Source of the DNA: a virus
Strand: one strand, 5' to 3'
Virus record (IMG/VR): IMGVR_UViG_3300027973_000236
Span: 1 to 22,396 of that record
Length of the DNA stretch: 22,396 nt
Shown here: one piece after another, positions 10,336 through 21,135 of the stretch
Numbering within the stretch: position 1 is the stretch's first letter
How the letters are laid out: every line of letters begins with the position of its first letter
The notes under the pieces: model-generated
Databases searched by the model: none
The model's input: the letters and a program-made list of their open reading frames with translations, nothing else
What the model was told of the DNA's origin: nothing
Translations under genes and position numbers: made by a program

Positions 10336-11004
10336 ATGGCTACATCACAAAATCGTAATAATTCAAAACTGGGTACTCCCACAACATTGACTAAAGGTGG
10401 TGCTGCTGGTGGTGTTTCAAAAACAAACACTGCTAAACAAAATTATACTGCAAGAAGCGTTGGTAATGATCATGGGTCACTTACTTTTGGTGCTATTCAC
10501 AAACAAGGTGATGTGACATCAGATGTAATGCTTCAGGCAACTGATGGAAGGCATGGCATTATTTTAGATAAAGACGGTTCTCGTAAAGGATGTACACAAA
10601 TCACTGCTCCTGGTAGAATTACTATTGATGCAGGTGAGGATAAAAAGGAAGCAGAAGATACATTGATGATTCATTCTTGGAATGGAAATATTTGTATCGT
10701 TGCAAGTAATGGAAAACTTAGATTGCAAGGAACTGATATTGAATTAGTTGCTGTTGGTGAGGGTGGTTCCAAAGGAAACATTCGCATGAAAGCAAGTGAA
10801 ACAATTGAACTTGATGGGAAAAAGATCATTGGCAATGCAAAAACTTTGTGTAAAATGGTTTCCAGTGGTAAAGTAGAAATGGCAGCAAATACTTGTATGA
10901 ATATATACGGATCATTAATCAGAAATACTACCGATGCCGTTGCAAATAAAGATGGTAAGAATGGTGGTCAACTTCTTCAAAATTTACAAAATCTAACAAG
11001 TTAA
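10336..11004 (+). CDS. Beta-helix spike-like structural protein, possible detached gp5 C-terminal needle
   Basis: A 222-residue protein. Residues about 1-45 are polar and probably extended. From about 50 on it is built of short strands with regular turns: an I-T-A-P-G-R-I-T-I-D-A-G strand pair, then units such as I-R-M-K-A-S-E-T-I-E-L-D-G-K-K and V-E-M-A-A-N-T-C. This periodic alternation of charged and small residues is what the gp5 C-terminal and VgrG-type triple-stranded beta-helices look like. The gp5-like protein at 4320-6143 lacks such a region, so this gene may supply the spike tip as a separate trimer. That is inference from sequence texture and context. No clear ribosome site precedes the ATG; the 27-base gap before it is T-rich. 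The next gene starts 7 bases after its stop. Confidence 0.7.
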   Translation: MATSQNRNNSKLGTPTTLTKGGAAGGVSKTNTAKQNYTARSVGNDHGSLTFGAIHKQGDVTSDVMLQATDGRHGIILDKDGSRKGCTQITAPGRITIDAGEDKKEAEDTLMIHSWNGNICIVASNGKLRLQGTDIELVAVGEGGSKGNIRMKASETIELDGKKIIGNAKTLCKMVSSGKVEMAANTCMNIYGSLIRNTTDAVANKDGKNGGQLLQNLQNLTS

Positions 11005-11011
11005 AAGTAAA

Positions 11012-11800
11012 ATGGCAAATTCTTCAGATGATATTTCAACTGGAAGACAGTTGATGGTTGGTGCAGGACAACCTCCTTGGATGGGGATTGGTGCAGCAGC
11101 TGTAAGAGGTGCTGCATTTGTTGAAGGTCCTTTATCAATTGGAAATGCAACAGAATTTCCTGGTGCATATGCAACATTGATGGTTGGTCCGTTGTCAAAT
11201 GGTGATGCAATAAAAGTTCCTGTTGCTGGGGCAAATTGTGGTCAAAATTTTTCTCCTTATTCACTTGTTGTAAGTGGTGATGCAGCAATTTTTGATAATC
11301 TAAGTGTCAGTAGTAATGTGATTGCAGGTTCTGATATCATTGCTCAGGGAGAAGTTAGGTCAAGATGTGGATCACATATCTTATCTGCTAAAAAGAACTT
11401 TGATATACCTCACCCATCCAAAGAAGGGTGGAGACTGCGCCATACGTGCCCAGAAGGTCCCTCAAACGATGTTTATGTAAGAGGAAAGGTTCTGAACCGA
11501 AATGAAATTCAACTTCCTTCTTATTGGAAAGACCTTGTTGATTGGACAACAATTACTGTATCACTAACACCAATTGGTGCTCATCAAGATGTGATTGTAA
11601 AAAGAATTGATGAAGATAAAATTTATCTCCAATCAAAAGGTAATATGCCCATTCATTGTTTCTATCATATCTTTGCTGAAAGAGCGGATGGTGAGAGATT
11701 GATTTCTGAGTATCAAGGAGAAAGTCCTGCAGATTACCCAGGCAATAATAATGAATATTCAGTTTCTGGATATCATTATGACACTAAAGGAGAAAACTAA
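11012..11800 (+). CDS. Fibre-like structural protein, first of two tandem paralogues
   Basis: A 262-residue protein. The N-terminal half (1-125) is Gly/Ala-rich with short strands of the kind seen in fibre shafts. From about residue 127 it carries a domain that starts K-N-F-D-I-P-H-P-S-K, continues W-R-L-R-H-T-C-P-E-G-P and ends with P-A-D-Y-P-G-N-N and G-Y-H-Y-D. The same domain forms most of the following gene. I recall this H-P-T/S-K and L-R-H domain as common in marine phage fibre or appendage proteins but know no function for it. A head-binding or assembly role is possible. Its stop and the next start overlap (TAATG at 11798-11802), and an AAGGAG site for the next gene lies within its last codons. 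Confidence 0.7.
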   Translation: MANSSDDISTGRQLMVGAGQPPWMGIGAAAVRGAAFVEGPLSIGNATEFPGAYATLMVGPLSNGDAIKVPVAGANCGQNFSPYSLVVSGDAAIFDNLSVSSNVIAGSDIIAQGEVRSRCGSHILSAKKNFDIPHPSKEGWRLRHTCPEGPSNDVYVRGKVLNRNEIQLPSYWKDLVDWTTITVSLTPIGAHQDVIVKRIDEDKIYLQSKGNMPIHCFYHIFAERADGERLISEYQGESPADYPGNNNEYSVSGYHYDTKGEN

Positions 11801-12495: not shown

Positions 12496-13343
12496 TTTTT
12501 ACTAATAGCCCCAAATCCCAATTTGTTTATAATGACCTATCGGATGAGCAGTCAAGACTTCAAAAAGCAGTTCAAAGTAATTATACAAACACTGGAGTTA
12601 CCTCAACATCAGTAGGTAATTACAAAGTTCCTTCTGCAGCTTTAGATCAACTTGCACTTCAAAAACTTGTAGTGATTAATAGTAAAAAACTAGAAATTTC
12701 TACAATTACTACCAATAATTTTAATACTTATTCCAGTTCTTGTGGTGCAAGTGGATGTGGTATAGGTACATCCACAAGTTTTTCTTCGTCGGTTATTGTA
12801 GGAACTTCAAAAACTACGGTTGGATATACTTGCGGAGTTACAACTTATTATGCAGGTAAAGCAGAAGTTCGTCAAGATATTTTATGTGCATGGAATTTTC
12901 CAGTTTTAGAAACTGTAAATTCCTCTGCAGAATTCTATACAGATGGAGAAACATACACTCAAGTTACCTCTGGTAATTTGGGTATTGGAAAAACTTCAGT
13001 TCTTTGTAGTGACACAAGCGATCTTTCAGGGTTGCAACCAACAGCAACATTAATTGGGTATTATTATCCAATTGATCCATCTGCTTCTGGCCCAGGATGT
13101 GCTGGTGCAATCTCTTCTGTTACATCCATTACAAATGAAATTATAACTTTAAGAAGTGAAATTAATTCTTTGACTACTGATATTAATACGATAAAAGATG
13201 AAAAAACAACATATCAAATTGATCTGTGGTATGAAAATAAGGCAACTAATGATTTTAATAATCGGTCAACTAATCTTGGAAATGCAACTAGTACGATGAC
13301 CCAGTATCAGCAGGTAATTGCCGATTATGAAGCAACCACTTGA
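12492..13343 (+). CDS. Structural-type protein with six cysteines and C-terminal coiled coil, unknown function
   Basis: A 283-residue protein translated from an ATGA overlap with the preceding fibre gene, with a TAGGAGA site at 12476-12482. The middle (about 75-205) is Ser/Thr/Gly-rich with six cysteines in C-G-A-S-G-C, Y-T-C-G, L-C-A-W, L-C-S-D and G-C-A-G contexts. The C-terminal about 70 residues form a polar heptad-like helix (N-E-I-I-T-L-R-S-E-I-N-S-L onwards), suggesting oligomerisation. No family is recognised. Operon position makes it the last gene of the structural run. Its TGA stop lies inside the -35 box of a sigma-70-type promoter that opens the next region. Confidence 0.7.
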   Translation: MIFTNSPKSQFVYNDLSDEQSRLQKAVQSNYTNTGVTSTSVGNYKVPSAALDQLALQKLVVINSKKLEISTITTNNFNTYSSSCGASGCGIGTSTSFSSSVIVGTSKTTVGYTCGVTTYYAGKAEVRQDILCAWNFPVLETVNSSAEFYTDGETYTQVTSGNLGIGKTSVLCSDTSDLSGLQPTATLIGYYYPIDPSASGPGCAGAISSVTSITNEIITLRSEINSLTTDINTIKDEKTTYQIDLWYENKATNDFNNRSTNLGNATSTMTQYQQVIADYEATT

Positions 13344-13368
13344 CAATGCCCTCTAGGTGCCCTATAAT
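13340..13368 (+). promoter_or_regulatory. Perfect-consensus sigma-70-type promoter
   Basis: TTGACA (13340-13345) and TATAAT (13363-13368) are separated by exactly 17 bases, the full bacterial consensus and optimal spacing. The -35 box contains the TGA stop of the preceding gene. Initiation is expected near 13375, 15-20 bases before the ATG at 13394. This is a host-polymerase (early) type of promoter, unlike the GATAAATA late motifs elsewhere in the window. Confidence 0.85.
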
Positions 13369-13782: not shown

Positions 13783-13790
13783 GTTTTTCT
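13766..13790 (+). terminator. Hairpin with T-rich tail, probable intrinsic terminator
   Basis: AACTCAAA (13766-13773) pairs perfectly with TTTGAGTT (13778-13785) around a CTTT loop, followed by TTTCT. The stem is A+T-rich, so termination may be partial. It covers the last codons of the 59-residue gene and abuts the first base of the tRNA at 13791, so readthrough would be needed for the island promoter to drive the tRNA. Confidence 0.55.
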
Positions 13791-13863
13791 GCCCGTGTAG
13801 CCCAGCGGAAGAGGCACAAAACTTAAAATTTTGCAAGCGACAGTTCGAATCTGTCCACGGGTA
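13791..13863 (+). tRNA. tRNA-Leu(UAA) with a short variable loop
   Basis: A 73-base cloverleaf. Acceptor stem 13791-13797 pairs with 13856-13862 (one terminal G-U pair), discriminator A at 13863, CCA not encoded. The D arm is 13800-13815. Anticodon stem CAAAA/TTTTG (13817-13821, 13829-13833) encloses loop CTTAAAA with anticodon TAA at 13824-13826. T arm GACAG/CTGTC (13839-13855) has loop TTCGAAT. The anticodon reads UUA leucine codons, frequent in this A+T-rich phage. The variable loop is only 5 bases (CAAGC), whereas bacterial leucine tRNAs normally have a long variable arm. Confidence 0.88.
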
Positions 13864-13889
13864 TTCCCTTCTAAATATGCAAAAGGGAA
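13864..13889 (+). promoter_or_regulatory. Hairpin covering the ribosome site of the 89-residue gene
   Basis: TTCCCTT (13864-13870) directly follows the tRNA and pairs with AAGGGAA (13883-13889) across a 12-base loop. The right arm is the likely Shine-Dalgarno region of the ATG at 13896, so pairing would hide it. There is no T-run, so it is not an intrinsic terminator. It may alternatively guide 3' processing of the tRNA. Confidence 0.35.
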
Positions 13890-13895
13890 ATCAAT

Positions 13896-14165
13896 ATGGG
13901 ATACCGAATTGAAACAGCATATTGCTGGTACAACAAAGAAACTCAAATTATTTTGATGTACTTTATCAATCACATCCCATTTACTTTTGATGAACTTCCT
14001 GACTTTGTGATGGAAGATCCTGAAATCATCAAAAAAGCAGATCAACAACGTCGTTGGAATCCAGAAGATCTTTACCGAACTTCCTTTTATCTGATAGACG
14101 AAGAAGCACATCCGATGATCTTTGAAGTTGATTTGGAAAATCCAGAGGCACTTCCTGTGGATTAA
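13896..14165 (+). CDS. Acidic 89-residue protein of unknown function
   Basis: Lies between the two tRNA genes. The start is supported by AAGGGA at 13883-13888, about 7 bases before the ATG. The protein is acidic and aromatic-rich, with strand-like segments around 5-12 and 17-25, a Pro/Asp-rich middle (P-F-T-F-D-E-L-P at 28-35), and a C-terminus with repeated Glu/Asp ending A-L-P-V-D. No signal peptide, membrane helix or family is recognised. A competing antisense frame across 13764-14225 is rejected because it runs through both tRNA genes. Only 4 bases separate its stop from the tRNA-Thr gene. Confidence 0.65.
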   Translation: MGYRIETAYCWYNKETQIILMYFINHIPFTFDELPDFVMEDPEIIKKADQQRRWNPEDLYRTSFYLIDEEAHPMIFEVDLENPEALPVD

Positions 14166-14169
14166 TTTT

Positions 14170-14240
14170 GCCTCTAAAGCATTGTGGTGATGCACCGCTC
14201 TTGTAAAGCGGAGACGACAGTTCAATTCTGTCTAGAGGCT
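14170..14240 (+). tRNA. tRNA-Thr(UGU)
   Basis: A 71-base cloverleaf. Acceptor GCCTCTA (14170-14176) pairs perfectly with TAGAGGC (14233-14239); discriminator T at 14240; CCA not encoded. D stem GCAT/ATGC is 14179-14182/14190-14193. Anticodon stem CCGCT/AGCGG (14195-14199, 14207-14211) has loop CTTGTAA with anticodon TGT at 14202-14204. T stem GACAG/CTGTC (14216-14220, 14228-14232) has loop TTCAATT. It reads ACA threonine codons, common in the fibre genes here. Position 8 is A and position 14 is T, the reverse of the usual U8-A14 tertiary pair. Confidence 0.88.
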
Positions 14241-14259: not shown

Positions 14260-14415
14260 ATGTCACTTATTTCACAACAAGATAGAGATCTTGCTATTGA
14301 AGCATTAAATTTCTACCTCTTCAGTAAAGGTAATGATTTTACTGAAGCAAAGAGAGCAGAAGTAAATGCTCTTCTTAACTGGATTAAATTGGAAAAAACC
14401 AAAAATGAATATTAA
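14260..14415 (+). CDS. 51-residue protein of unknown function
   Basis: An open frame of 51 codons starting MSLISQQDRD, 19 bases after tRNA-Thr. It is predicted mostly helical: a first helix around 5-22, then a second from about 27-47 (T-E-A-K-R-A-E-V-N-A-L-L-N-W-I), followed by a lysine-rich tail. No family is recognised. The next gene starts inside it (14405), an 11-base overlap, consistent with a compact operon leading to the Mom-like gene. No strong ribosome site precedes the ATG, which lowers confidence, but codon use is phage-like throughout. Confidence 0.55.
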   Translation: MSLISQQDRDLAIEALNFYLFSKGNDFTEAKRAEVNALLNWIKLEKTKNEY

Positions 14416-14578
14416 ACTTTGGTATTGCGAATCAATGAAACTATGGCGTTGGACTTTAACTGATGATTCTCGCACAATCATCAAACAAGAATCTGGACAA
14501 CAACCAGACTTAAGAGATGCAATGAATGATGTAGCAACTACCGTGGAATATATGTTGGAAACCCGACAAATTCCATGA
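14405..14578 (+). CDS. 57-residue protein of unknown function
   Basis: The ATG at 14405 (MNIKLWYCESMK) is preferred over an in-frame ATG at 14366, because it overlaps the preceding gene by only 11 bases and because the extra residues would be translated from inside that gene. The protein begins with an aromatic-rich beta hairpin-like part (L-W-Y, L-W-R-W-T-L) and ends in a helix (R-D-A-M-N-D-V-A-T-T-V-E-Y-M-L-E). The stop overlaps the next start (ATGA at 14575-14578), so it is translationally coupled to the Mom-like gene and may belong to the same function. No family is recognised. Confidence 0.6.
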   Translation: MNIKLWYCESMKLWRWTLTDDSRTIIKQESGQQPDLRDAMNDVATTVEYMLETRQIP

Positions 14579-15189
14579 GTAAAAGTGCTTACTTTATAGA
14601 TAAAGTTGGTAAGAATGAAATCAAAGATTTACTTTATACCTATCACTATTTAAAAGATGAATCCAAAGATTTTAAATCTGGTTTCAACTATGGACTTTTT
14701 AGATCCACATTCGAATGCCCTCTTAATATTGGCGGGTGTCTTGGTACTTGCGTTTTTACTAATCTCCCAGTTCCAGAAATTGCCGTAAGTGCATTTGGTC
14801 TGGAGAGACATCAACAAGATGGACTTTATGAACTCTCTAGACTTTGCATTCATCCAGACCTTCAAAAAGAAGAATATAATATTACATCCTGGTTTGTAAG
14901 TCGTTGTATCAAGAGGTTTAGAAAAGATGCCCCAGTTCGTGCTATTCTTAGTTATGCTGACTCTAATCACCACACTGGAGTTATATACAGAGCTTGTAAT
15001 TTTAAGTATTACGGGTTAACCGCACCAAAGAAAGATTTTTACTATGCAGATGGCACAAAACATTCACGAGGTAGTGTTCGCGGCATTGATGGTCAGTGGT
15101 GCAATCGCAGCCGTAAACATCGCTATCTTATGGTATTCGATAAAACGCTGAACCTCTTGTGGAAAGAAGAAAAGTATGGTAATATATAA
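14575..15189 (+). CDS. Mom-like GNAT-fold protein, putative DNA adenine-modification enzyme
   Basis: A 204-residue protein. The central and C-terminal parts resemble the phage Mu Mom family: Y-E-L-S-R-L-C-I-H-P-D at 85-95, a helix with S-W-F-V-S-R-C-I-K-R at 105-114, then A-I-L-S-Y-A-D-S at 123-130, H-T-G-V-I-Y-R-A-C-N-F at 133-143 and Y-Y-G at 145-147. Mom belongs to a divergent GNAT-like acyltransferase family and converts adenine in DNA to N6-carbamoylmethyladenine, protecting phage DNA from restriction. The motif order and the length (Mu Mom is about 240 aa) agree. The C-terminus (155-185) is basic and aromatic, fitting DNA contact. It is coupled to the preceding small gene (ATGA) and followed by a strong terminator. 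The alternative is a general N-acetyltransferase. The family call is from memory of motifs; the chemistry in this phage is unknown. Confidence 0.75.
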   Translation: MSKSAYFIDKVGKNEIKDLLYTYHYLKDESKDFKSGFNYGLFRSTFECPLNIGGCLGTCVFTNLPVPEIAVSAFGLERHQQDGLYELSRLCIHPDLQKEEYNITSWFVSRCIKRFRKDAPVRAILSYADSNHHTGVIYRACNFKYYGLTAPKKDFYYADGTKHSRGSVRGIDGQWCNRSRKHRYLMVFDKTLNLLWKEEKYGNI

Positions 15190-15226: not shown

Positions 15227-15251
15227 AACCTCCTTCGGGAGGTTTTGTTGT
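15227..15251 (+). terminator. Strong intrinsic terminator with UUCG tetraloop
   Basis: AACCTCC (15227-15233) pairs perfectly with GGAGGTT (15238-15244) around a TTCG loop, followed by TTGTTGT. It closes the accessory island after the Mom-like gene and insulates it from the next late gene, whose promoter motif begins 3 bases later. Confidence 0.85.
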
Positions 15252-15253
15252 AT

Positions 15254-15261
15254 GATAAATA
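15254..15261 (+). promoter_or_regulatory. T4-type late promoter motif GATAAATA
   Basis: The same octamer as at 6139-6146, here just after a strong terminator and 30 bases before the ATG at 15292. Initiation 6-8 bases downstream would give a leader of about 23-25 bases. It marks the return from the island to late structural genes. Confidence 0.7.
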
Positions 15262-15291: not shown

Positions 15292-18200
15292 ATGGGTCTC
15301 TCCAGATTAGATAATTTTTTGAAATCGGTTCGCGGTACAATCATATATGTTGATCCAAATAGTCTTGATGCTACAGATAGTATTGAGAACCAAGGAAATT
15401 CATTAACCCGTCCCTTTAAGACAATTCAAAGGGCTCTGATTGAAGCATCAAGATTTTCATATCAGAGAGGTCTGAATAACGATAGATTTGGTAAGACTAC
15501 AATTCTTCTATATCCCGGAGACCACATTGTTGATAACCGTCCAGGATGGATTCCTGATGGTTCAAATAATTACAGACTTAGAAATGGAGCACTATCAACA
15601 GATTTTCCTGCATTTGATCTAACAACAAACTTTGATGTTAATACTCAAGATAATCAACTTTACAAACTGAATAGTATTCATGGTGGTGTAATTGTTCCCC
15701 GTGGTACTTCAATTGTTGGTCTTGATTTAAGAAAGACTAAGATTCGTCCTAAGTATGTTCCCAACCCAGAAAATGATAATATTGAAAGATCAACAATCTT
15801 TAGAATTACTGGTGGATGCTACTTCTGGCAGTTTTCATTATTTGATGCTGATCCAAACGGTCAGTGCTATATTGATTACACAAACAACTTATTTGTTCCA
15901 AACTTCTCTCACCATAAACTCACTTGTTTTGAGTATACTGATGGAAGAAATGCTGTAAATATTAATGATACTTTCCAATCATATTCAACAGATCGTACTG
16001 ATTTGGATATGTATTATGAAAAAGTTGGATTGGCTTATGGACAATCATCTGGTCGTGCAATTGAACCAGATTATCCATCTTCGTCTATTGATATTCAACC
16101 TAAGATTGATGAATATCGTATTGTCGGACCAACTGGTGGTTCGGTTGGTATTACAAGTATTAAGTCAGGTAATGGCGTAACTCCAACAACAACGATTACA
16201 GTCACAACTTCTTCTGCAGTAGATGGTCTGGATGTAGATACTGCATTCCGTGTTGAGGGTATTACTGCATCAGGTTATAATGGTCAGTTTGTTGTTACTG
16301 AAAGATTAAGCGATACTCAGATTACATATCAGGTTCAGAATGCACCAGCATCTGCACTTCCAAGCGTCACAGGAGCAACACTATCATTAAGTTCTGATAC
16401 TGTTACCTCAGCATCTCCATACATCTTTAACATCTCTCTGCGTTCTGTTTATGGAATGTGTGGTGTTCTTGCTGATGGCGATAAGGTAGAAGGATTTAAA
16501 TCTATGGTGATTGCCCAGTTTACGGGTATTGGTTTACAGAAAGATGATAATGCATTTGTTGTATATAACTCAAGTAGTGGCCAATATGATGATACTACTG
16601 TTGCAGGAAATGAGACAATTAGTAATAATTCAAGTGCAGTCTTTAAACCTTCATATAGAAACTTCCATATCAAGGCTATTAATGATGCCTTTATTCAGAA
16701 CGTTTCAATCTTTGCAATTGGTTATGCTGAGCACTTTGTAGTAGAAAGTGGTGGTGACTTCTCAGTCACAAACTCCAACTCTAACTTTGGCGCAAAATCA
16801 CTTGTTGCATCAGGTTTCCGAAGAGATGCATTCCCACAAGATGATCTCGGCTACATCACTCATATTATTCCGCCAAAGGAAATTACAACTGTAGAAAATG
16901 CAATTGAATTCAATTCACTTGACGTAAGCAAAACTGTTGGTGTTGCATCAACAGGACATCTTTATCTTTACAATCAAACAAACTCTGATGTTGCACCAGA
17001 AAATGTTCTGGAAGGTTATAGAATTGGTGCAAGAGAAAATGATTTACTGAAAGTTCTGATCTCAAACGTAGGAGTTGTAACAGAATTTACTTCTCGTATT
17101 GTAATGCCAGGTTCTCAGTCAAGTTCTGAGAAAAAGTTCTATGTAAACAGAAGTACCGCAGGTATTAATAGTATTACCAGCAATACACTTTCATTAACTC
17201 AAAGTCATAGTCTCTTTAATGGAGAATCCATTCGTATTTTAAGTGATAGTGGTCAAATTCCTGATGGACTAGCACCAAATACTGTATATTATGCAATTAC
17301 AAATTCTAATACTTCGAGTGGATTAACAACCACTACTCAGATTAAAATTGCAAAGACACAAAATGATGCAATTAATGCTACTGCAATTTCAATCAATAAT
17401 AAAGGTGGACTTTTAAGTGTTGTAAGTAGAGTATCTGATAAGAATTCTGGAGATATTGGCCACCCAATTCAATATGATACTACCAATTCTCAGTGGTATA
17501 TTAAAGTATCAACTGCGACAACTGATAATACAATTTATTCTCAAATTGTAAGTCTAGGAACAACTTCACTTGGATCTGCAACACCAAGAACTTATATTTC
17601 ACGTAAACAAGACAATAGAAACTCGACAGATACAATTTACCGTGTAAGATATGTAATACCGCAATCTGCAGGGTCTGTTGATGCAAGACCACCAAGCGAT
17701 GGATTTATTCTTCAAGAATCCAATACATCAATCGGATCAACAACTGGCGAAATTGTAACCTACTTTGGTAGTGGATCTATTAGTAATGTAAATCAACAAA
17801 GAAACTTTAGATTTATTGCTGATGCAAATTGGGTTGGTTCTACTGCAAATCTGATTACAGAACTTCCACACAATCTTTCTGTTGGTTCTATTGTTGAACT
17901 TGTAAATGTCAAGAGTTCTGCAAATACAACAGCAGCAAGTAATAGCGGATTTAATGGTACTTATACTGTAACAGGAATTAGTAGTGCAAAACAATTCTCT
18001 GTTGGTATCTCTACAAATCCTGGTACATTCACTAACGACACTTCTTCAAGAACAACTACTCTTCCATATTTCAAGAGAAAAAATTATACAAATACTTATT
18101 ATGTTTATAGAAGTCAGGAAGCACAAAAATATATCAGTGGACAACAAGATGGTGTCTATTACTTAACTCTTGTTAATGCATCAAATGCACCAACAGTTTC

Positions 18201-21135
18201 GCCATTTACCGCTGAAAAATATACACAACCAGTAAAAGAACTTTATCCACAAACCAACCGCGATAATCCAGTTTCTGATCCAGATGCAACAACTTGTTTT
18301 GCATCATCATCAACGATTGGTGAAGTTGTTGTTGATGATGTTCGTAAGAGTATTACAAAAGAAACCCTTACAAAAGTATTAAAAGATATTGATGTTGGTA
18401 TTGGTATTACTAATATTGTATCAGCATCATCTACAACTCACACAATCTATACATCAATTGACCATGGCCTGAATAGAATTACTGCAGTCAGTATTGGTAA
18501 CAGTGGTGCTGCTTATGGTTCTGGTTCTGGTGGAACTCTCTATAATGCAAAACTTGTTGGTCTTGCAGGTTCTACAACAGGTTCTTATGCAACTGCTAAA
18601 CTGACATTGAATGCATCAGGTAATATTACTGATGTCAAGATTATGGATGGTGGTAGTGCCTATGGCATCGGCAACACACTTGCTGTTGTTGGCGTTGCAA
18701 CCACAACTGGTTATTCGCAAGGATATGTAACTGTTACTCAAGTCTATAACAATGTTGGCGATACTGTTAGAGTTTCTGGCGTATCCTCAATTGCATATCA
18801 ACCAGTTAATGACTTGTATAGAATTACAAGTGTTGCTGTTGGTGCCGCAAAGAGTTTTGCAGTTTCTTCTGCATCTTCAATTTCAGTCAGCCCATCAACG
18901 GGAATTGGTGTCACAGTTACTGCAAATGCATTTACCTATCTTACAGGAGAATCAATTCGTATCAGTGCATTGACTTATACTAACACAACTGGAATTGCAA
19001 CTGTTACGACAACCAATAGACACGGATTAAAGGTTGATAACAAGGTTCGTTTCACTGGTGCAAATCAAAGTGTTTATAACGGCGACTTTGTTGTTAAGGA
19101 AAATCTCAGTCTCAATTCATTCTCTGTTACAATTGGTGTTACCACATCTGCTCCAACAGCAACAGGAACTCTCTATGCATATCGTGAAGGTGTAACATCT
19201 AATGGTGGGGTGATTACAAGAGAGGATGAAAACCTGAATGGTAGAATGATTACCAATTATGCAGGAATTACAACTACATTATCAGCACTGATTGCTGATG
19301 CAACTACCGAACAAATTAATATTCAAGGAATTGCTAATCTTGATATTAACATTGGTGATTACTTACAAATTGATGATGAAATTGTAAGAGTTAAAACAAC
19401 TGTTCCAAGCACTGCTGCCAATCCAATCTATGTCTTCCGTGGTGTACTGGGAACGCGAGCAGTTAATCATGCAATTAACTCTGTTGTAAGAAGAATTGCG
19501 GTTAATCCAGTTGAACTTCGTAGGCACTCAATCATTCGTGCATCAGGACATACATTTGAGTATGTTGGATTTGGTCCTGGTAACTATTCAACTGCATTCC
19601 CAGATAAACAAGACCGTCAGATTTCTGCAGTAGAAGAACTTCTGGCTCAATCAACCAGAAGAGATGGTGGTATTAACTTCTATACTGGTATGAATGATAA
19701 GGGTATCTCATACTCTGGTAATAAAAAGTTAAGTACAGTTACAGGTCAAGAAGAAATCTTTGATACCCCTGTTCAAACTGTTACTGGCGAAGACATTGGT
19801 TCTTTCCCTTCTTTGAATGTTATCAATCCTGTTGAAGCAACATTCAGTCGTTCTATTCGTGTTGAAGGTGGTTCTGATAACAAATCAATTTCAGAATTCA
19901 ATGGACCAGTTGTATTCAGTAACAAAGTAACCTCAACTGCATCAGGGGGTATTGAGGCAAACTTACTGTTCTTACAAGGTGATGCAACAGTTTCAAGAAA
20001 GTATACGGTTGGAATTGCAACTCCTTCTCTTGCTGGTAACCCAGGTGATGTAGTCTATTATGAAAGACCAACGAAGGGTGGATATCTTGGATGGGTTTAT
20101 ACAACTGATAATGACTGGTATCGTTTCGGTGCAGTCAGTCTGGACAAGAACTTAAATATTGGCCTTTTTGATCAAGTTGGAATTGCAACCACAAGTCCTG
20201 GAACTAATCTTCTTCAAGTTGGTAGTGGATCCGCATTAGTTGCTATTACTACAAGTGGTGGTGTTGGTCTCGGAACCACCGCAAATCAATTCAAATTGAA
20301 TGTAAATGGCAATACAAATATCATTGGTACTTGTTATGCATCTTACTTCTCTGGTGATGGTAGTGCATTAACAAATCTGAATGGATCTGGATTTGGTTGG
20401 ACACAAATCAGTGGTGGTCTTTACAATACCAATTTAAATAATGTTGGTATTGGCACATCAGTTCCAAGATTTAATCTTGAAGTTGGTGCTGTTGGAACGT
20501 CTGCAACATCTCTTTATGTAAATGGTCAAGCAAAATTTGTTGGCATCATTACTGCAAATAATGTATTTGTAAGTGGAATGATGACTGCAATTGGATTTGA
20601 CCTAAAATCAACATCAGGTCAAATTACTGCAGGTATTGTTACCACAACAACACTTGTAGTTGGTAGTGGTGGAACTACGATCACAACCAGTGGTTCAAAC
20701 GTTGGTGTCGGTACACTTACACCAAGAGCAAAACTTGATATTGAAGGTTCTGTAAGATTTACATCTTATTTTGAAGTAGTTCAGGCAGTCACGAGTTCTT
20801 CAGGTGTTGTAACAATTGATCTTTCCAAGGCACAGACATTCACACTTGCTCCGACAGAAGCAGTAACATCATTTACATTACTAAATCCACCAGCAGGATC
20901 CACTGCATTTACACTTAAGATTGCTCAAGGTTCTACTGGATACTCTGTTGGAATTGATACCTTTAGAAATTCTGGTGGAACAGCAATTCCTGTTTACTGG
21001 GCTGGTGGTGGTGTTGTTCCGAACGTAACAACCACAGCAAACCGAACTGATATCTACTCCTTCAAGATATTTGATGGAACGAATATTACGACCGATGGAA
21101 TGTTTGGTATTGTTGGAGGACAGAACTTCCTATGA
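15292..21135 (+). CDS. Giant virion structural protein: pectate-lyase-like N-terminus, repeated beta modules and fibre-type C-terminus
   Basis: A 1947-residue protein under a late promoter. Residues about 18-90 show the start of a pectate-lyase-like beta-helix (Y-V-D-P-N-S, R-P-F-K-T-I-Q-R-A-L-I-E-A and L-Y-P-G-D-H), with further helix turns to about 240. A module with a Y/F-N-G-x-F/Y-x-V core recurs at about 301-370, 846-915 and 1230-1300, with a weaker copy at 1163-1200. Residues about 1340-1620 are less repetitive (R-G-V-L-G-T-R, G-F-G-P-G-N-Y-S) and look like a packed domain. The C-terminus (1620-1800) carries fibre-type repeats with G-I-G-T and G-V-G-T turns and S-G-D-G-S-A-L-T-N-L, as in phage tail fibre shafts. 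No catalytic residues are assigned. It is probably a baseplate-attached appendage. The stop overlaps the next start (ATGA). Confidence 0.8.
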   Translation: MGLSRLDNFLKSVRGTIIYVDPNSLDATDSIENQGNSLTRPFKTIQRALIEASRFSYQRGLNNDRFGKTTILLYPGDHIVDNRPGWIPDGSNNYRLRNGALSTDFPAFDLTTNFDVNTQDNQLYKLNSIHGGVIVPRGTSIVGLDLRKTKIRPKYVPNPENDNIERSTIFRITGGCYFWQFSLFDADPNGQCYIDYTNNLFVPNFSHHKLTCFEYTDGRNAVNINDTFQSYSTDRTDLDMYYEKVGLAYGQSSGRAIEPDYPSSSIDIQPKIDEYRIVGPTGGSVGITSIKSGNGVTPTTTITVTTSSAVDGLDVDTAFRVEGITASGYNGQFVVTERLSDTQITYQVQNAPASALPSVTGATLSLSSDTVTSASPYIFNISLRSVYGMCGVLADGDKVEGFKSMVIAQFTGIGLQKDDNAFVVYNSSSGQYDDTTVAGNETISNNSSAVFKPSYRNFHIKAINDAFIQNVSIFAIGYAEHFVVESGGDFSVTNSNSNFGAKSLVASGFRRDAFPQDDLGYITHIIPPKEITTVENAIEFNSLDVSKTVGVASTGHLYLYNQTNSDVAPENVLEGYRIGARENDLLKVLISNVGVVTEFTSRIVMPGSQSSSEKKFYVNRSTAGINSITSNTLSLTQSHSLFNGESIRILSDSGQIPDGLAPNTVYYAITNSNTSSGLTTTTQIKIAKTQNDAINATAISINNKGGLLSVVSRVSDKNSGDIGHPIQYDTTNSQWYIKVSTATTDNTIYSQIVSLGTTSLGSATPRTYISRKQDNRNSTDTIYRVRYVIPQSAGSVDARPPSDGFILQESNTSIGSTTGEIVTYFGSGSISNVNQQRNFRFIADANWVGSTANLITELPHNLSVGSIVELVNVKSSANTTAASNSGFNGTYTVTGISSAKQFSVGISTNPGTFTNDTSSRTTTLPYFKRKNYTNTYYVYRSQEAQKYISGQQDGVYYLTLVNASNAPTVSPFTAEKYTQPVKELYPQTNRDNPVSDPDATTCFASSSTIGEVVVDDVRKSITKETLTKVLKDIDVGIGITNIVSASSTTHTIYTSIDHGLNRITAVSIGNSGAAYGSGSGGTLYNAKLVGLAGSTTGSYATAKLTLNASGNITDVKIMDGGSAYGIGNTLAVVGVATTTGYSQGYVTVTQVYNNVGDTVRVSGVSSIAYQPVNDLYRITSVAVGAAKSFAVSSASSISVSPSTGIGVTVTANAFTYLTGESIRISALTYTNTTGIATVTTTNRHGLKVDNKVRFTGANQSVYNGDFVVKENLSLNSFSVTIGVTTSAPTATGTLYAYREGVTSNGGVITREDENLNGRMITNYAGITTTLSALIADATTEQINIQGIANLDINIGDYLQIDDEIVRVKTTVPSTAANPIYVFRGVLGTRAVNHAINSVVRRIAVNPVELRRHSIIRASGHTFEYVGFGPGNYSTAFPDKQDRQISAVEELLAQSTRRDGGINFYTGMNDKGISYSGNKKLSTVTGQEEIFDTPVQTVTGEDIGSFPSLNVINPVEATFSRSIRVEGGSDNKSISEFNGPVVFSNKVTSTASGGIEANLLFLQGDATVSRKYTVGIATPSLAGNPGDVVYYERPTKGGYLGWVYTTDNDWYRFGAVSLDKNLNIGLFDQVGIATTSPGTNLLQVGSGSALVAITTSGGVGLGTTANQFKLNVNGNTNIIGTCYASYFSGDGSALTNLNGSGFGWTQISGGLYNTNLNNVGIGTSVPRFNLEVGAVGTSATSLYVNGQAKFVGIITANNVFVSGMMTAIGFDLKSTSGQITAGIVTTTTLVVGSGGTTITTSGSNVGVGTLTPRAKLDIEGSVRFTSYFEVVQAVTSSSGVVTIDLSKAQTFTLAPTEAVTSFTLLNPPAGSTAFTLKIAQGSTGYSVGIDTFRNSGGTAIPVYWAGGGVVPNVTTTANRTDIYSFKIFDGTNITTDGMFGIVGGQNFL

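Follow-up and report, generated by a model that had tools for sequence, protein, structure and literature searches.

We found that a gene on the forward strand of a viral record (14575..15189; 204 aa, ATG start) encodes a genuine Mom-family relative of phage Mu Mom, and that Mom is an optional insert of ~0.6 kb that separates a phrog_2818 gene from the giant fibre gene of T4-like cyanophages. The window referred to below is the whole stretch of 22,396 nucleotides that was analysed. Mu Mom masks viral DNA chemically against bacterial restriction enzymes, its adduct being N6-carbamoylmethyladenine. From the sequence, a structural model and the analogy with Mu, we put at roughly 75% the probability that the cyanophage Mom would modify adenine in the phage's own DNA against restriction. 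What is new is a Mom-family member in a new host group; the kind of enzyme was already known.

Family membership, fold and active-site residues

The first-pass annotation had recognized the gene by a Mom-family order of motifs, and all three motifs it quoted were located in the protein (SRLCIHPD, residues 88–95; YADS, 127–130; HTGVIYRA, 133–140). Two family profiles also matched above chance: Pfam PF25680 (Mom) over residues 6–193 (E 5.8e-19, 69 bits, where the curated cut-off is 27.1 bits and Mu Mom scores 253) and PHROG phrog_1384, "Mom-like" (E 1.3e-27). A search of NCBIfam with the window protein gave no match. When PDB sequences were searched with phmmer using the window protein as a single-sequence query, 8bv8 (Mu Mom) was recovered at E 0.006, and a profile of 30 relatives from which Mu sequences had been excluded (alignment A2) recovered it at E 5e-4. 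The value of 2.5e-50 obtained with a profile of alignment A1 was circular, since A1 held Mu rows, and was disregarded. Identity as a homing endonuclease was rejected: the matches to phrog_559 and phrog_3339 are domain-only, spanning C-terminal profile positions alone (465–555 of 607 and 404–493 of 536, respectively), and no HNH nuclease domain was matched in the window protein by Pfam.

The first-pass annotation had also proposed setting a predicted structure against Mu Mom and the GNAT families, and the closest fold proved to be that of Mu Mom. An AlphaFold2 model of the window protein built with 30 aligned relatives (pLDDT 88.6, pTM 0.83) had 8bv8 as its top fold in a Foldseek search of the PDB (E 1.4e-10) and as rank 1 in VIA-align (Z 17.1, 184 residues, rmsd 3.8), where the runner-up was an ordinary acetyltransferase (Z 13.2). 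The Mom signature (HY, ELxR, NxxS, S[YF][AS]D, G..Y) is complete in the window protein in alignments of 20 and 33 members, the conserved residues being H24 Y25, E86-L-S-R89, N102-I-T-S105, S126-Y-A-D129, G135 and Y138. In the alignment of 20, which takes in Mu, Listeria, Staphylococcus, Enterococcus, Salmonella, Vibrio, mycobacterial and other phages, H24, E86, R89, S126, D129 and Y138 are identical in every protein (20/20), and Y25 and N102 in 19/20. The residues of Mu Mom that are matched in the window protein are H58, Y59, E108, R111, N121, S124, S146, D149 and Y159 (241-aa numbering).

The title of 8bv8 calls the Ser124 Ala mutant inactive, and in a sequence alignment of Mu and 18 other family members S105 is the counterpart of Mu Ser124. 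Aligning Mu with the cyanophage clade alone paired Ser124 with Asn102, as if the catalytic serine had been lost, and this proved to be an artefact; adding 18 more diverse members shifts the pairing to N121–N102 and S124–S105, and the catalytic serine is therefore not lost. Although the fold is common to both proteins, identity to Mu Mom is about 20–23%, and the window protein is without the roughly 35-residue N-terminal extension of Mu Mom. In work attributed to Karambelkar in 2020, Mu Mom reportedly binds acetyl-CoA and iron.

HPDLQKEEYNITSW, which links the ELSR strand to the helix that follows, holds no glycine P-loop (Q/R-x-x-G-x-G/A), and the glycine is missing from the GNAT P-loop region in the window protein and in Mu alike. 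No GNAT family was matched in Pfam at E<=1, where PF25680 stood alone. Having neither a glycine P-loop nor a GNAT match in Pfam, the window protein is not an ordinary acetyltransferase. Close pairs gave dN/dS values of about 0.10–0.22, indicating purifying selection, and the Mom protein is therefore maintained.

An optional gene ahead of the cyanophage tail-fibre gene

The region had been described at first pass as a T4-like cyanophage tail region, and this description holds. The fibre gene of the window shows about 72–75% nucleotide identity to those of the Synechococcus myoviruses S-SM2, Bellamy and SynMITS9220M01; photosystem reaction-centre proteins (PF00124, psbA/psbD-type) are encoded on all Mom-bearing contigs of 95 kb or more (6/6); and in one other lineage Mom adjoins CpeT and bilin reductase genes (cpeT/pebS-type), away from the fibre. 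Because of these fibre matches, PF00124 genes and neighbours, these Mom-bearing phages are assigned to the cyanophages. Mom was found in 9 of the 10 long related contigs searched.

Relatives of the window Mom are encoded on 533 IMG/VR stretches, which are contigs and not independent genomes; 80 loci were kept, and together with the window they hold 67 distinct Mom proteins. The giant tail-fibre gene, which flanks the slot (15292..21135, forward strand; 1947 aa), lies within three ORFs after Mom in 73 of 81 loci, while the remaining eight comprise five truncated or fragmentary loci and three, from one lineage, with Mom elsewhere. A search begun from the fibre gene recovered Mom at 32 of the 79 usable loci, leaving 47 without it. 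It stood directly before the fibre in 31/32 of the former, and 3.3 kb away in one (L225). The gap from the phrog_2818 gene to the fibre is typically about 705–755 nt with Mom and, in the loci without Mom where a phrog_2818 gene was found, usually about 40–220 nt. The isolates S-SM2, Bellamy and SynMITS9220M01 have the short form of the slot, without Mom. Other genes also occupy the slot, including 2OG-Fe(II) oxygenases and genes bearing HNH or NUMOD3, and a fibre-adjacent accessory hotspot was seen in nine loci (L006, L020, L038, L048, L064, L067–L069 and L080) with 2OG-Fe(II) oxygenases of many kinds and, probably, homing-type endonucleases.

Among the phage records searched, a collection from which those nearest to the window may be missing, there was no close relative of the window Mom, the best being that of Roseobacter phage CRP-212 (51%). 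Any orthologue from a cyanophage isolate in those records would outrank CRP-212, and so none is present in the isolates searched; the close form of Mom is common in uncultured cyanophages and occurs in no sequenced cyanophage isolate searched. A literature search for a Mom gene in cyanophages found no report, although one may exist elsewhere. On one 153-kb contig with photosystem genes (G004) we observed two Mom genes from different branches (C1:65600-66193 and 137096-137689; L261 and L262), possibly through misassembly, the second being 53% identical to the Mom-family protein of cyanophage S-SSM6a.

Upstream, all on the forward strand, lie tRNA-Leu (TAA; 13790..13864), a small phrog_4134 gene (13896..14165), tRNA-Thr (TGT; 14170..14240), a small phrog_38106 gene (14260..14415) and, overlapping it, the small cyanophage gene phrog_2818 (14405..14578), which is directly upstream of Mom and whose stop overlaps the Mom ATG (ATGA at 14575). 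The earlier proposal that Mom sits behind its own regulatory region was not borne out: Mom closes a cluster of translationally overlapping genes, and the nearest strong promoter, a sigma-70-type TTGACA-17-TATAAT on the same strand (13340..13368; 12/12 consensus), lies ahead of the whole tRNA/small-gene cluster. Perfect hexamers with a 17-nt spacer were found upstream in 19/73 loci with Mom and 20/39 without, the spacer sequences being divergent, as against 0/73 on the reverse strand, 4/72 equally long fibre-gene stretches and an average of 0.06/73 loci after shuffling. The promoter sequences suggest that the cluster would be expressed early, independent of Mom. The conserved promoter and its tRNA/small-gene cluster lie among the structural genes of T4-like cyanophages. 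Between Mom and the fibre gene, a terminator-like hairpin (15227..15250, forward strand) is followed by ATAAATA, a T4-late-promoter-like element (15255..15261, forward strand), and both recur in loci with and without Mom alike.

This arrangement is unlike that of Mu mom, which is preceded and overlapped by com, the gene of the zinc-finger activator Com. No Mu-type com gene was found before the window Mom, the overlapping upstream gene being phrog_2818, which has a lone Cys and lacks any CxxC pair, and Mom stands instead in a cyanophage tRNA/small-gene cluster.

Mom relatives in other phages

In a tree, the Mom genes of the cyanophage slot cluster with further Mom genes of aquatic origin, and Mu and S-SSM6a fall elsewhere. 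Outside the cyanophages, members of the same clade adjoin genes for a family-A DNA polymerase and for a dCTP deaminase-like protein (L098, 49% identity) or a DnaB-like helicase gene (L104, 73% identity; the same neighbour is seen in L114), or lie near a ribonucleotide reductase gene (L099, 55% identity), and more distant Mom genes neighbour DNA polymerases or DNA methyltransferases. Because the nearest relatives in other phages adjoin genes of DNA replication and DNA metabolism, the fibre neighbourhood of Mom looks positional. Of the initial suggestion that Mom belongs to a structural gene block, the place beside the tail genes stands, while a functional link to them is weakened by the occurrence of the same clade in DNA-replication modules elsewhere.

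The closest isolate is CRP-212, whose gp15 region encodes a Mom of the same clade (51–54% identity) that differs in carrying a C-terminal MazG domain and in adjoining ribonucleotide reductase. Mom and the MazG nucleotide pyrophosphohydrolase domain occupy one frame (10342-11271; L083:4001-4930), which is annotated publicly as a MazG protein only, with a truncated start inside the Mom part. The whole fusion occurs on nine IMG/VR contigs (85–98% identity), and a tenth (L097) holds most of it (L088–L097).

The Synechococcus phage S-SSM6a likewise has a Mom-family gene, CYVG_00145, which differs from the window Mom in its low identity (27%), its branch of the tree and its position outside the fibre slot. 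This gene of a cultured cyanophage is unannotated and lies beside psbA and a tRNA cluster (L256:2911-3534). Mom-like proteins of Listeria, Enterococcus, Staphylococcus, Salmonella and Vibrio (ICP1) phages have the same signature residues, although they fall on other branches (about 25–33% identity) and have different neighbourhoods. We also noted that the homing endonuclease Hef34 of Campylobacter phage NCTC12673 (L260:307-1926) resembles Mom in its C-terminal region, where H, ELxR, SYSD and Y are conserved, and that a contig filed in a gammaproteobacterial MAG (NYUL01000008.1; L247) is a phage-like contig bearing a Mom gene and equals the IMG/VR record of L113 in length (49349 bases).

Proposed function and its alternatives

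Mom transfers an acyl group from acyl-CoA to N6 of adenine (review, PMC7824862). By analogy, the cyanophage protein would be a Mom-type acyltransferase-fold enzyme that modifies adenines in phage DNA, probably at N6 and, as Mu does, with a group derived from acetyl-CoA or glycine, and DNA modified in this way would resist host restriction enzymes. The gene is an optional accessory in the slot just before the fibre gene of this cyanophage lineage, and the tRNA/small-gene cluster that ends in it would probably be read early from the host-type sigma-70 promoter. DNA is the favoured substrate because Mom relatives adjoin or fuse with DNA-metabolism genes. Against DNA modification stand the low identity to Mu Mom given above and the neighbours of the cyanophage gene, which are the fibre and 2OG-Fe(II) oxygenases and not replication genes.

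A Mom-type modification of DNA whose adduct or target base differs from that of Mu Mom is unlikely. Such a difference would fit with how deeply the protein has diverged from Mu (about 20% identity), with a loop before N102 that is longer by 3 residues and with membership of a separate clade shared with other aquatic phages, and the MazG fusion in one relative hints at a nucleotide-pool partner; however, every family-invariant active-site position is the same. We regard it as rather improbable that the product of the cyanophage clade is a new DNA base modification, perhaps made jointly with the 2OG-Fe(II) oxygenases of the slot or, among relatives, with the MazG nucleotide hydrolase fused to Mom.

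The position of the gene brings up a further possibility, namely a repurposed Mom-fold enzyme that modifies the tail fibre or some other protein of the virion and works together with the 2OG-Fe(II) oxygenases of its slot. The regularity with which a fibre gene follows Mom (73/81 loci) and the variety of oxygenases in the same place speak for it, yet in 47/79 loci and in isolates a fibre gene of the same family has no accompanying Mom, a terminator and a late-type promoter lie between the two genes, and one lineage keeps Mom away from the fibre, next to the cpeT/pebS-type genes. Close relatives sit in replication modules and the Mom active-site residues are all retained, and we consider a role in fibre modification very doubtful. 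That the protein is an ordinary GNAT N-acetyltransferase with a small-molecule or protein substrate is hardly credible, since its GNAT fold, which many acetyltransferases match at Z 12–13, is outweighed by Mom being the best match by sequence and by fold, by the lack of any GNAT match in Pfam and by the segment after the ELSR strand being without a glycine P-loop.

Modification of adenine in phage DNA by Mom would bear on abundant viruses, as T4-like cyanophages rank with the most common viruses of surface waters. The Mom clade of the window is missing from the sequenced cyanophage isolates searched. The clean presence or absence of Mom in one slot offers a natural paired comparison. Should many uncultured T4-like cyanophages have modified DNA, wild cyanobacteria may be under heavier restriction pressure than the picture drawn from laboratory strains, and detection of phage DNA based on nanopore signal or restriction would be affected.
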